NCBI RefSeq assembly: GCF_028712425.1
Contig: NZ_JAQTQD010000015.1
Span: 1-61,984 of the forward strand
Reading direction: 5' to 3'
Origin: Methanoregula sp.
Lineage (GTDB): Archaea; Halobacteriota; Methanomicrobia; Methanomicrobiales; Methanospirillaceae
Length of the DNA stretch: 61,984 bases
The notes beneath the pieces are model-generated. The model was not told the origin of the DNA, did no database searches, and worked only from the letters and a program-made list of their open reading frames with translations. Below are positions 10,551-15,237 of this stretch, in pieces (within the stretch, counting starts at the first letter, position 1; every line of letters begins with the position of its first letter). Both the position numbers and the translations under genes were made by a program.

Positions 10551-10590
10551 GGTTTTAACCATTTATGCGCATATGTGTAGTAAATAGCCT
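10551..10590 (+). promoter_or_regulatory. Promoter with TATGCGCATA operator (copy 1)
   Basis: A TATA-like GGTTTTAACC (10551-10560) is directly followed by TTTATGCGCATATGTGTA (10562-10579), which contains the perfect palindrome TATGCGCATA. The same 18-base block, with at most two changes, recurs at 10989 and 12149, each time just after a TATA-like box and just before a small gene. The operator lies between the TATA box and the expected start of transcription, so a protein bound there would repress. The neighbouring DUF134 protein is the best candidate binder (inference). Confidence 0.75.
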
Positions 10591-10950
10591 ACGATCATCT
10601 GTGTTACTGCAAAAGGACCCACTCTGGACAGCCTCTTCGAACCGCATTTTGCCAGGGCGCCCTATTTTATTTTTTTTGATACCCGGACCCGGAAATCCGA
10701 AGCGATCAGAAACGGCTTCATTGTCCACGATACAAAGATCGGCCAGAATGCGGTACGGCTCCTCATCACCCGCAAAACCAAAACGCTGGTGACCGGGAGT
10801 GTCGGCGATAATGCCGGATGGCTCCTCCGCGGGGCCGGCATCAATCTCTGCCATTATGAAACCGCAGGTACCGTATCAGAAGCGCTGAGCACCCTGGTCC
10901 CCGGAAGTCCTGGAAAAAGCCGGGCACGGAAAGAGATACAGCAACGGTGA
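10591..10950 (+). CDS. NifX/NafY-like iron-molybdenum-cofactor-type protein with ACG in place of the start codon
   Basis: The frame from 10591 to TGA at 10948-10950 encodes 119 residues of the dinitrogenase iron-molybdenum cofactor biosynthesis (NifX/MTH1175-like) fold. CVTAKGPTLDSLFEPHFARA and PYFIFFDTRTRK open the domain, ITRKTKTLVTGSVGDNAG gives the central strands, and LLRGAGINLCHYETAGTVSEAL is the conserved glycine-rich end. The family normally begins M-x-I-x-V-T. Here the first codon is ACG, and an in-frame TAG lies four codons upstream with no ATG, GTG or TTG between. Either ACG is used, the start was lost by a T-to-C change, or there is a sequence error. Everything after it is intact, which argues against an old pseudogene. 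A possibly leaderless transcript would start close to this codon. Confidence 0.75.
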   Translation, partial: TIICVTAKGPTLDSLFEPHFARAPYFIFFDTRTRKSEAIRNGFIVHDTKIGQNAVRLLITRKTKTLVTGSVGDNAGWLLRGAGINLCHYETAGTVSEALSTLVPGSPGKSRARKEIQQR

Positions 10951-10977
10951 GAGGTTCTATCTGTGTCACAGAACAAC

Positions 10978-11021
10978 ATTTTAAATGATTTATGCGCATA
11001 TGAGTAATTATCGTACGACAA
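10978..11021 (+). promoter_or_regulatory. Promoter with TATGCGCATA operator (copy 2)
   Basis: The TATA-like ATTTTAAATG (10978-10987) is followed by TTTATGCGCATATGAGTA (10989-11006). The similarity to copies 1 and 3 continues with TAATTATC and GTAC (about 11005-11017). It drives the Cys/His-rich peptide, a small paralogous protein and the DUF134 regulator. The arrangement implies autoregulation if DUF134 is the binding protein. Confidence 0.75.
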
Positions 11022-11040
11022 GCGTACGGTTGGTGAACAC

Positions 11041-11262
11041 ATGCCAGAAGAGACCACACACACAACACCACAGCAAAACGACGATGACAATCTCCCCCTG
11101 CATACCTGTGCATGTGGAGAACAGCACCGGCACCGCCCGGGCAGCCGGAGCCACCGGGAAGAATGCACGTCCGAGAAAAAATTCGGCGACTCCTGCTGCT
11201 GCGGACCGGCGGCCGGTTCGGGAAACCAGCACCGCTGCGGCCACGGGCCCCGGTGCCAGTGA
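11041..11262 (+). CDS. Cys/His-rich small protein, probably metal-binding
   Basis: A 73-residue hydrophilic protein with no family I recognise. It contains CACGEQHRHRPGSRSH in the middle and CCCGPAAGSGNQHRCGHGP toward the C terminus, so Cys and His are clustered in pairs and triplets. This composition suggests binding of several metal ions or an Fe-S cluster. It is the first gene after the second TATGCGCATA operator. ATG 11041 follows TGGTGAAC. Overlapping frames are open too, but this one has the strongest residue pattern. It may be a metal or cluster chaperone for the nearby NifX-like, NBP35 and AtwA proteins (inference). Confidence 0.55.
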   Translation: MPEETTHTTPQQNDDDNLPLHTCACGEQHRHRPGSRSHREECTSEKKFGDSCCCGPAAGSGNQHRCGHGPRCQ

Positions 11263-11295
11263 ACTCCCCTCACCCTTTTTTTGGAGCCTTCGGCC

Positions 11296-11610
11296 ATGCA
11301 ACGTCATCCGGAAGTCCCCGAGCTGCTGGAGCAGTACATGGAAGCATCCAGAACAGCAGAGTGCTGGATAACGGTCCGGGAATTCCGTTCCTTTTTCCGG
11401 ATGGACGAATCGGCAGGCCCCGCTATTTCGGGATTTCTCCAGCGGATCCACCATGGGCCGTTCTATGCGTGCCGTTACCGCGTGGCCCGGATGGAGAAGT
11501 TCCGCGACACTGCCCCGCCGTACCGGATCATCAAAAAGTACCTGGTACAGGCCCGGCCAGCCCCGCGGTCATCCCACATAAAGGGTGGAGTGCATAAGGA
11601 AAACCGGTAA
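11296..11610 (+). CDS. Small conserved protein, paralog of the protein at 14926
   Basis: A 104-residue protein whose first 75 residues align with the protein at 14926-15237. Shared blocks are PELLEQ[YF]M, W[IV]TV[RQ]E[FL]R, [IV]SGFL[QR]R[IL]H and PP[YR]R near the end. The helix pattern (short helix, TVREFRSFF, then SGFLQRIHH) resembles a winged helix-turn-helix, so DNA or protein binding is possible. GGAGCC at 11283-11288 supports ATG 11296 over TTG 11281. It is co-transcribed with the Cys/His-rich peptide and DUF134. I do not recognise a named family. Confidence 0.7.
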   Translation: MQRHPEVPELLEQYMEASRTAECWITVREFRSFFRMDESAGPAISGFLQRIHHGPFYACRYRVARMEKFRDTAPPYRIIKKYLVQARPAPRSSHIKGGVHKENR

Positions 11611-11655
11611 ACCTGTTATACTATTCAGGCTCCAGTATTATTCAGGAACAGCGAT

Positions 11656-12015
11656 ATGGCAGCAGAAGAGAATCCCGTAATGAACGAATGCCCACGGCGG
11701 GGGAGGCCCCGGGTGCAGCGGACGATTGCCGGCAACGCCGAGTCCCGCTGCTACAAGCCCTGCTGCTGCGAGGGGGAGGGCGAAGGGATCACCCTCCAGC
11801 CGGAGGAGCTCGAACTGATCCGGCTTATCGACCTCGAAGGCCTGGAACAGGAGGCGGCAGCCGAGCGGATGGGCGTTTCCAGGAAGACGGCGTGGCGCGA
11901 CCTTCACGAGGCGCGCCGGAAGATTGCCGATGCGCTCGTGAACGGCAAGAGTATCGAGATGGGCGGGTGCACGAAAGCAGCCGAAGGCCGGTGCCCGAAG
12001 TGCCCGCGGGAATGA
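11656..12015 (+). CDS. DUF134 family DNA-binding protein
   Basis: A 119-residue protein of the DUF134 family, which often neighbours NifX-type genes in archaea and anaerobic bacteria. CPRRGRPRVQRTI is the basic N-terminal arm, CYKPCCCEGEG carries the family cysteines, and LELIRLIDLEGLEQEAAAER plus GVSRKTAWRDLHEARRKIAD form a sigma-factor-like helix-turn-helix. The tail GRCPKCPRE adds another CxxC. The cysteines probably bind an Fe-S cluster or metal and make DNA binding sensitive to it (inference). It is the best candidate for the protein that reads the three TATGCGCATA operators around it. Confidence 0.9.
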   Translation: MAAEENPVMNECPRRGRPRVQRTIAGNAESRCYKPCCCEGEGEGITLQPEELELIRLIDLEGLEQEAAAERMGVSRKTAWRDLHEARRKIADALVNGKSIEMGGCTKAAEGRCPKCPRE

Positions 12016-12140
12016 TCCCGGAACAAAGAATCCTCTTTTTACCAAGCGGGCGGGATTGCCCGGTGCGCCGGATGCCCGGTAAGGCACCCGGGAGATGCAC
12101 ACCGGCGCCCGTTCCGCATGACTCCTCTTTGCTCCCGATC

Positions 12141-12181
12141 CTTAAATCTTTATGCTCATATGTGTAATAATTCCGTACAAG
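12141..12181 (+). promoter_or_regulatory. Promoter with TATGCTCATA operator (copy 3)
   Basis: CTTAAATC (12141-12148) as TATA box is followed by TTTATGCTCATATGTGTA (12149-12166), one base different from copy 1. TAATAATTCCGTACAA then runs to 12180, resembling copy 2. It precedes the DUF5320-like peptide and, seven bases after that gene, atwA. AtwA expression is therefore probably under the same control as the NifX-like and DUF134 genes. Confidence 0.75.
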
Positions 12182-12189
12182 GAAGTATC

Positions 12190-12345
12190 ATGCCGAATTA
12201 TGACGGGACCGGGCCGCTGAAACGGGGACGAGTGGTTGGGAGGGGAATGGGCCCCTGCCACCGCAGCCCTGACAGCTGCATACGAAAGGAAGAGCAACCG
12301 GATTGCCCTGCAAAGGACCGGGTGGAAACACCTCCCCGGGAGTGA
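12190..12345 (+). CDS. DUF5320-like small protein
   Basis: A 51-residue peptide starting MPNYDGTGPLKRGRVVGRGM, close to the MPGFDRTGPMGMGPMTGRGMG-type start of DUF5320 proteins, which occur beside NifX/NifB-like genes. A CxxxxxxC pair (CHRSPDSC) and one later Cys follow. Family members are thought to be accessory to metal-cluster proteins, but no role is proven. It is the first gene after the third operator, and atwA starts six bases later. Confidence 0.7.
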   Translation: MPNYDGTGPLKRGRVVGRGMGPCHRSPDSCIRKEEQPDCPAKDRVETPPRE

Positions 12346-13995: not shown

Positions 13996-14895
13996 ATGAC
14001 ACAAGAGAAAGAGACACGAAAAAATCCCGATACCTGCGATGAGAACTGCACCGAGAACTGCGAGACCTGCCCGTCAAAGAAGACCGCAGGAGCGCCCAAA
14101 GGCCTGCCCCCGAAAGCAAAGATCGACGTGAAGCACGTCATCCTCGTGCTGAGCGGGAAAGGCGGGGTGGGCAAGTCCACCGTCTCCGTCAACCTCGCGT
14201 TCGCGCTTGCAAACCAGGGGAAGAAGACCGGCATCCTCGACCTCGACTTCCATGGCCCGAACATACCCAAGATGCTGGGGATCGAGGACCAGCGGCCGGC
14301 GGTTACCACCAATACGATTGAACCGGTCCCCGTGACCGGCAACCTCTCGGCGATCTCGATGGCGTTCCTGCTGCCGGATACGAGCACGCCGGTGGTCTGG
14401 CGCGGCCCGATGAAGATGACGGCAATCCGGCAGTTCCTTTCTGAAGTGCACTGGGGGGCGCTTGACTATCTCGTGGTCGACCTCCCTCCCGGTACGGGTG
14501 ACGAGGCACTCACGATTGCCCAGCTCGCCCCCAATGTCCGCGGCGCCGTGATCGTGACAACCCCTCAGGAAGTCGCGGTCATGGACGCCATGCGGGCGGC
14601 AAAGTTCATCGAGAAACTCGATCTTCCGGTCCTTGGCGTGATCGAGAACATGAGCGGGATGGTCTGCCCCCACTGCGGGGGTTTTGTCGATCTCTTCTCC
14701 ACCGGTGGCGGGAAGAAGGCAGCAGAGGACCTCGGCGTCCCGTTCCTCGGGGCGATCCCGCTGGACCCCGAGATGGTGAAGGCCGGCGACGACGGGCGCC
14801 CCTATATCCTGCGGCACGCGGACTCCCCCACGTGGAAGGCCGTAGATGCCGTAATGGAACGGCTGGTCCGGGAGATCGATGCACCAAAGGCATAG
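13996..14895 (+). CDS. NBP35/Mrp-family Fe-S cluster carrier ATPase
   Basis: A 299-residue P-loop ATPase of the Mrp/NBP35/ApbC family, which binds a [4Fe-4S] cluster at a dimer interface and hands it to target proteins. GKGGVGKST at about residue 54 is the deviant Walker A, and DLPPGTGDE and the CPHC motif (about 226-229) are diagnostic. The N terminus carries extra cysteines (CDENCTENCETC), like the eukaryotic NBP35 N-terminal cluster site. It follows atwA by 48 bases and could share its transcript. Cytosolic. Confidence 0.93.
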   Translation: MTQEKETRKNPDTCDENCTENCETCPSKKTAGAPKGLPPKAKIDVKHVILVLSGKGGVGKSTVSVNLAFALANQGKKTGILDLDFHGPNIPKMLGIEDQRPAVTTNTIEPVPVTGNLSAISMAFLLPDTSTPVVWRGPMKMTAIRQFLSEVHWGALDYLVVDLPPGTGDEALTIAQLAPNVRGAVIVTTPQEVAVMDAMRAAKFIEKLDLPVLGVIENMSGMVCPHCGGFVDLFSTGGGKKAAEDLGVPFLGAIPLDPEMVKAGDDGRPYILRHADSPTWKAVDAVMERLVREIDAPKA

Positions 14896-14925
14896 ATCCG
14901 GCCTCCCATTTTGTTTTCAGGAGCC

Positions 14926-15237
14926 ATGAGAAAATATAACGGCATCCCGGAACTGCTGGAGCAGTTCATGCAGGCAGACGGCTCTGACAAGCGGTGGGTG
15001 ACGGTGCAGGAACTGCGCGACTATTTCGGCCTGACCCGGTACCAGTGCAACACGGTATCGGGGTTTTTGCGCCGGCTGCATGCCGGGCAGTTCGGGCAGT
15101 GCCCCTATGTTGTTGTCCGCGTTGATCGGGTGGCAGGGCACAAACCGGGCGATCCGCCACGGTACCGGTACCTGGTAAGCCGGAAGAACGATAGTACTCA
15201 GTCAATAACGGGAAAAGAAAAACCGGCAGAAGTATAA
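14926..15237 (+). CDS. Small conserved protein, paralog of the protein at 11296
   Basis: A 103-residue protein homologous to the one at 11296: PELLEQFMQA, WVTVQELRDYF, TVSGFLRRLHAGQFG and PPRYRYL occur in the same order. The pattern TVQELRDYFGLTRYQCNTVSG looks like a helix-turn-helix. AGGAG at 14920-14924 supports ATG 14926 over TTG 14911. It closes the AtwA/NBP35 island, so the pair brackets the island at both ends. Function unknown. The C-terminal 25 residues are polar and divergent. Confidence 0.7.
   Translation: MRKYNGIPELLEQFMQADGSDKRWVTVQELRDYFGLTRYQCNTVSGFLRRLHAGQFGQCPYVVVRVDRVAGHKPGDPPRYRYLVSRKNDSTQSITGKEKPAEV

Follow-up and report, generated by a model that had tools for sequence, protein, structure and literature searches.

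A conserved dyad at NifX-like, DUF134 and atwA promoters of Methanoregula is a candidate operator for the orphan regulator DUF134

Three promoters in a 61,984-nt stretch of Methanoregula sp. DNA (hereafter the window) carry near-identical 18-mers, with a TATA-like box just ahead of each. From the comparative evidence set out below, we consider it likely that the DUF134 (UPF0251) protein encoded behind one of them is an autorepressor acting at all of these sites, coupling carriers of iron-sulphur clusters to component A2 of the methyl-coenzyme M reductase (MCR) system. The sites and the genes that they precede are as follows.

10553..10558, + strand: TATA-like box of promoter 1 (TTTTAA), read from sequence; spacing conserved in 109 family sites
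10562..10579, + strand: operator copy 1, TTTATGCGCATATGTGTA (exact match); dyad 14-mer at 10566-10579
10588..10950, + strand: NifX-like gene (Nitro_FeMo-Co domain); Pfam PF02579, 43.1 bits; frame check
10979..10986, + strand: TATA-like box of promoter 2 (TTTTAAAT), from sequence and the family-site matrix
10989..11006, + strand: operator copy 2, TTTATGCGCATATGAGTA (exact match); dyad at 10993-11006
11041..11262, + strand: gene for a Cys/His-rich peptide of 73 aa, which opens the DUF134 unit; ORF kept behind the operator in relatives
11281..11610, + strand: wH1, small protein of unknown family, paralog of 14911-15237
11656..12015, + strand: DUF134 (UPF0251) regulator, 119 aa; PF02001, 81.7 bits; recognition helix SRKTAWRDLH
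12141..12147, + strand: TATA-like box of promoter 3 (CTTAAAT), from sequence and the family-site matrix
12149..12166, + strand: operator copy 3, TTTATGCTCATATGTGTA (exact match); dyad at 12153-12166
12190..12345, + strand: DUF5320-like small protein; PF17253, 30.2 bits
12352..13947, + strand: atwA, component A2 of the MCR system; TIGR03269 equivalog match, 856 bits (cut-off 517)
13996..14895, + strand: Mrp/NBP35-type Fe-S carrier ATPase; PF10609, 334.5 bits
14911..15237, + strand: wH2, paralog of 11281-11610, from the distribution search

An earlier note on this DNA had reported the three 18-mers at 10562, 10989 and 12149, and exact matching finds them there, with pairwise differences of 1, 1 and 2 positions. 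At up to three mismatches they are the sole matches inside the window, against a chance expectation of 0.01 from dinucleotide shuffles, and three matches occurred in 0/100 shuffles. The whole 2.67 Mb genome holds five matches at up to one mismatch, together with one three-mismatch match within a coding ORF; the reversed pattern, searched across the same genome at up to three mismatches, gave 0 matches. All five sites are at NifX, DUF134 or atwA promoters, so the motif is not scattered at random. The two sites beyond the window (one mismatch each) lie on the minus strand of contig C51, at 34141 and 39172, and each precedes a further NifX-like gene; the cluster there, the second in this genome, also has DUF134, a radical-SAM protein, and Mrp and MinD-type ATPases. 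The idea of a regulon thus has comparative support, but not the description of it as local: given the sites on C51, it comprises five.

Pfam and NCBIfam models bear out the downstream units described in the note, namely the NifX-like gene, the Cys/His-rich peptide with DUF134, and the DUF5320-like gene with atwA, and the Mrp/NBP35-type ATPase is probably in the same transcription unit as the last of these. The NifX-like frame (window 10585-10950) has no in-frame ATG, GTG or TTG after an in-frame TAG. The residues PTIICVTAKG stand in place of the MKIC(V/F/I)TA(K/R)G of relatives, so the start of the gene looks mutated from ATG to ACG, by what would seem to be either start loss or a base error. 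In Methanoregula, a gene for a metallo-beta-lactamase-fold protein is often divergent from the Cys/His-DUF134 promoter (four loci and others).

The symmetry of the motif is centred on CATATG (TRCKCATATGWGTA), between the T and A of CAT/ATG, at position 10.5 of the 18-mer; the half-site is ATG-W-GYA and the full dyad TRC-K-CAT/ATG-W-GYA, with the stroke marking the centre. The palindrome had previously been placed on TATGCGCATA, which lies away from the centre and loses its symmetry at the T of the atwA copy (operator copy 3), a variant that is conserved at the atwA promoters of relatives. A matrix built from 109 unique family sites reads TTTWAA - 4 bp - TTTATGCKCATATGWGTAATWAT. The TATA-like box noted just upstream of each 18-mer is therefore a conserved feature, with TTTWAA 4-9 bp upstream of the motif in this set. 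Of two proposed extensions, TAATWAT is conserved across the family but missing at 10562, and GTAC is not part of the conserved motif. If TTTWAA is the TATA box, the usual archaeal TATA-to-start spacing predicts a transcription start near motif positions 18-22, in which case the operator would occupy the stretch from TATA box to start. This is the arrangement that the earlier note had proposed, and the conserved TATA-like box supports it, with the start position as a prediction.

Across Methanomicrobiales, the sites precede NifX, DUF134-operon and DUF5320-atwA genes; the operator is thus present in orthologous promoters. The genomes sampled are partly incomplete, and some counts here are of the matches listed. 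A family scan at up to two mismatches gave matches in 71/100 genomes, against 4 matches in all for the reversed pattern. The strict family pattern missed seven genomes in which a variant site is present at a regulon gene. In 80 fetched stretches, 111/130 sites have a cluster gene no more than 420 bp downstream, this gene being NifX in 42 cases, DUF5320/atwA in 35, the Cys-His/DUF134 unit in 31 and another gene in 3. DUF134 loci not used before, from the order and from motif-less genomes of the family, yielded 29 matches to the position weight matrix at a score of at least 15, where 0.35 were expected. An exact 23-mer scan of 84,980 GTDB genomes returned 29 stretches, only from Methanoregula, Methanoregulaceae or Methanomicrobiales records.

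Presence of the operator follows presence of DUF134. Among 55 genomes of the order, drawn from a 295-genome sample of the phylum, the strict 18-mer occurs in 47/50 that encode DUF134 and in 0/5 that lack it (one-sided exact hypergeometric p about 1.6e-5, a value that ignores kinship and, since relatives are not independent, overstates certainty). In the three DUF134-encoding genomes without the strict 18-mer, a regulon gene has a variant of the site. Given that atwA is present in every methanogen searched among these genomes, its promoter serves as a control independent of loss of the cluster. In six genomes without DUF134, representing four genera, the atwA promoter has no operator, either by whole-genome scans with the 18-mer or by the matrix at the atwA loci, and these promoters keep their TATA-like boxes. 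Two genomes (G229 and G255) each have two full-length atwA copies with the operator at one only; such copies may form a natural constitutive/regulated pair.

DUF134 proteins split into subtypes by recognition helix, and the operator changes with the helix. Proteins of the SR[KR]TxW[RK]D (SR[KR]TxWRD) type have a CATATG operator within 2.5 kb in 89/95 loci and TGAATATATATTCA in 0/95, and SQPTFHR-type proteins have TGAATATATATTCA in 17/17. The present genome encodes an SQPTFHR paralog at C51:35344, and its single TGAATATATATTCA lies 300 bp away from that gene; this genome and some relatives (three loci) contain both subtypes or both kinds of operator, each paired with its own site. A second DUF134 on C51, with the same kind of recognition helix as the window protein, may share the CATATG sites. 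We predict TGCKCATATGWGTA as the target sequence of the window protein. In the 295-genome sample of the phylum, 71 genomes contain exact TGAATATATATTCA and about 4 its reversed form, and the exact palindrome often lies next to one of the DUF134 genes listed; in family f9 (L289-L297), some exact palindromes have no DUF134 within 1.5 kb. For Methanosarcina-type proteins (SRRAFW), a search of 3-kb loci and upstream regions turned up weak TCTCACATGAGA-like candidates but no clear dyad in common, and at four f9 loci with an SKATVW helix the promoters carry repeated GAAAYATGTTTC-like elements, a possible fourth operator type.

The association extends to bacteria, where DUF134 genes carry TGRCATATGYCA sites. 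Roseburia and Selenomonas have the CATATG site as TTGACATATGTCAA, enterobacteria as GGCATATGCCA. CATATG lies within 160 nt upstream of DUF134 in 9/13 bacterial plasmid records (binomial P 1.6e-10, which assumes independence and overstates it, since the 13 loci are plasmid-borne and partly related). For six of the seven Firmicute or spirochete records, the first half-site is the TTGACA -35 box of a promoter whose -10 box also fits. At four loci on enterobacterial and Aeromonas plasmids, DUF134 overlaps a NifB/NifX-family gene and tandem CATATG-type sites lie upstream of it; the Citrobacter, Enterobacter and Providencia plasmids among these are conjugative. A direct binder would be expected to show such a tight link of operator to helix, which here holds between paralogs of a single genome as well as between archaea and bacteria. 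Together with the co-occurrence, this link gives strong comparative support to the earlier suggestion that DUF134 is the protein that would bind these sites.

We propose that DUF134, probably as a dimer, binds the dyad and, lying between the TATA box and the predicted start, would block RNA polymerase, repressing the operon that encodes it as well as the units of the NifX-like genes and of DUF5320-atwA-Mrp. Since the site falls between TATA box and predicted start, DUF134 is most likely a repressor, and the position of the site in archaea and bacteria alike points to repression and autorepression. That DUF134 binds but activates, or switches between activation and repression with a ligand, is rather unlikely: its fold resembles sigma-70 region 4, and atwA and Mrp would be plausible targets for induction on demand, but a site downstream of the TATA box, or on the -35 box of consensus-like Firmicute promoters, is the classic place for a repressor, and an activator would be superfluous at autoregulated sites whose core promoters are good.

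Repression through DUF134 also has to be weighed against other proteins. Because most DUF134 genes are among their own targets, adjacency alone could fit another linked factor, and co-occurrence alone cannot separate DUF134 from an unlinked transcription factor that co-occurs with it. We regard an unlinked reader of the sites as improbable, since two DUF134 subtypes in one genome each have their own operator type and similar dyads lie upstream of DUF134 in bacterial phyla. The linked candidates are wH1 and wH2, small proteins that we label winged-helix-like from a reading of their sequence; they are encoded in the same units, in two copies in this genome, and neither matches a Pfam or NCBIfam model. 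Their distribution largely refutes them as binders: the family is present in 7/56 genomes and 2/19 genera of Methanomicrobiales, yet the operator is in nearly all, and they would leave both the helix/operator code and the bacterial sites unexplained, which makes this reading very improbable. Among the genomes searched, these paralogs are restricted to Methanoregula and one sister genus. Equally hard to credit is a core-promoter or RNA element of the gene family, a reading suggested by the AT-richness of the motif and its place at the core promoter, since the motif has dyad symmetry, is gone from atwA promoters upon loss of DUF134 while TATA-like boxes are kept, and occurs in like form in bacteria with different core promoters.

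With DUF134 as the likely repressor, the target set makes sense, because the A2 complex holds the cluster that NifX-type proteins carry. The ATP-driven complex that activates MCR, of which A2 is a member, contains three nitrogenase-like L-clusters whose synthesis probably involves NifB (PMC12176620). NifX-type proteins carry and deliver NifB-co/L-cluster in nitrogenase assembly (PMC13128457), and Mrp/NBP35 proteins take part in Fe-S biogenesis (PMC6345978). The regulon would thus join A2 to proteins that carry complex Fe-S clusters, namely the NifX-like ones and Mrp, and we suggest that it tunes cluster supply to MCR activation. Co-control of atwA and NifX fits the 2025 finding of nitrogenase-type clusters in the activation complex, and for methanogens it would place the activator of the methane-forming enzyme under a candidate transcriptional control shared with NifX-like cluster carriers.

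What DUF134 might respond to is a guess: metal, an Fe-S cluster or redox, perhaps through its Cys-rich ends. Most Methanomicrobiales forms have C[YF]xPxC and a Cys-rich tail and some do not; as the Cys pairs are missing in some operator-carrying species, a Cys-based sensor is weaker as a general rule. A wider reading, which we offer only tentatively, is that DUF134 is an archaeal and bacterial repressor family with a helix/operator code that senses supply of complex Fe-S (L-cluster) or metal, and that in Methanomicrobiales it matches cluster trafficking to MCR activation. The type of mechanism is ordinary, an HTH protein on a dyad operator, and the family assignment, the operator code and the atwA link appear to be new. 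An orphan regulator family spread over archaea and several bacterial phyla gains a concrete candidate operator and target set, and a natural code ties its recognition helix to a DNA site.

The window protein matches the PF02001 profile over residues 13-104 (cut-off 27 bits) and is thus a member of DUF134/UPF0251, a family annotated as of unknown function to which we assign a putative operator and regulon. In the openly available papers searched, we found neither a DNA site or function for DUF134/UPF0251 nor the TGAATATATATTCA palindrome. Its structural model is of high confidence only over residues about 44-102 (a strand, three helices and a strand), with pLDDT about 95 for the HTH at residues 51-90. 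The protein scores as a sigma-70 region 4-like HTH (Sigma70_r4_2, 32 bits; Foldseek matches to region 4 of SigR, SigD and SigE). The nearest solved folds in Foldseek are sigma-70 region 4 and the DNA-binding domains of KorA and DeoR, all with weak E-values, and a sequence search of the PDB returned designed TIM barrels for the most part, plus an ECF sigma factor. As in palindrome-binding autoregulators, a dyad operator lies at its own promoter and is conserved across relatives.

Archaeal repressors of the LrpA, MDR1 and Phr type bind between the TATA box and the transcription start. The system proposed here would resemble them in the predicted position of a palindromic site and in the logic of negative autoregulation, and it is by site position that we liken them; they have Lrp, DtxR and wHTH folds, whereas DUF134 has a sigma-70-region-4-like HTH. 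The plasmid regulator KorA would be alike as a compact HTH dimer on a short palindrome, although its fold match to DUF134 is weak (E about 0.1) and its regulon is unrelated. The nearest parallel in gene content is with the ORP/MrpORP clusters of anaerobes, in which Mrp/NBP35 and MinD-type ATPases and NifX-like proteins are likewise encoded together (PMC6345978), and a Peptoclostridium cluster of this type includes DUF134. The window Mrp falls below the cut-off of the MrpORP model NF041136 (356 vs 450 bits, profile positions 3-251 of 365), and, unlike the ORP/MrpORP clusters, the cluster in the window is joined to atwA.
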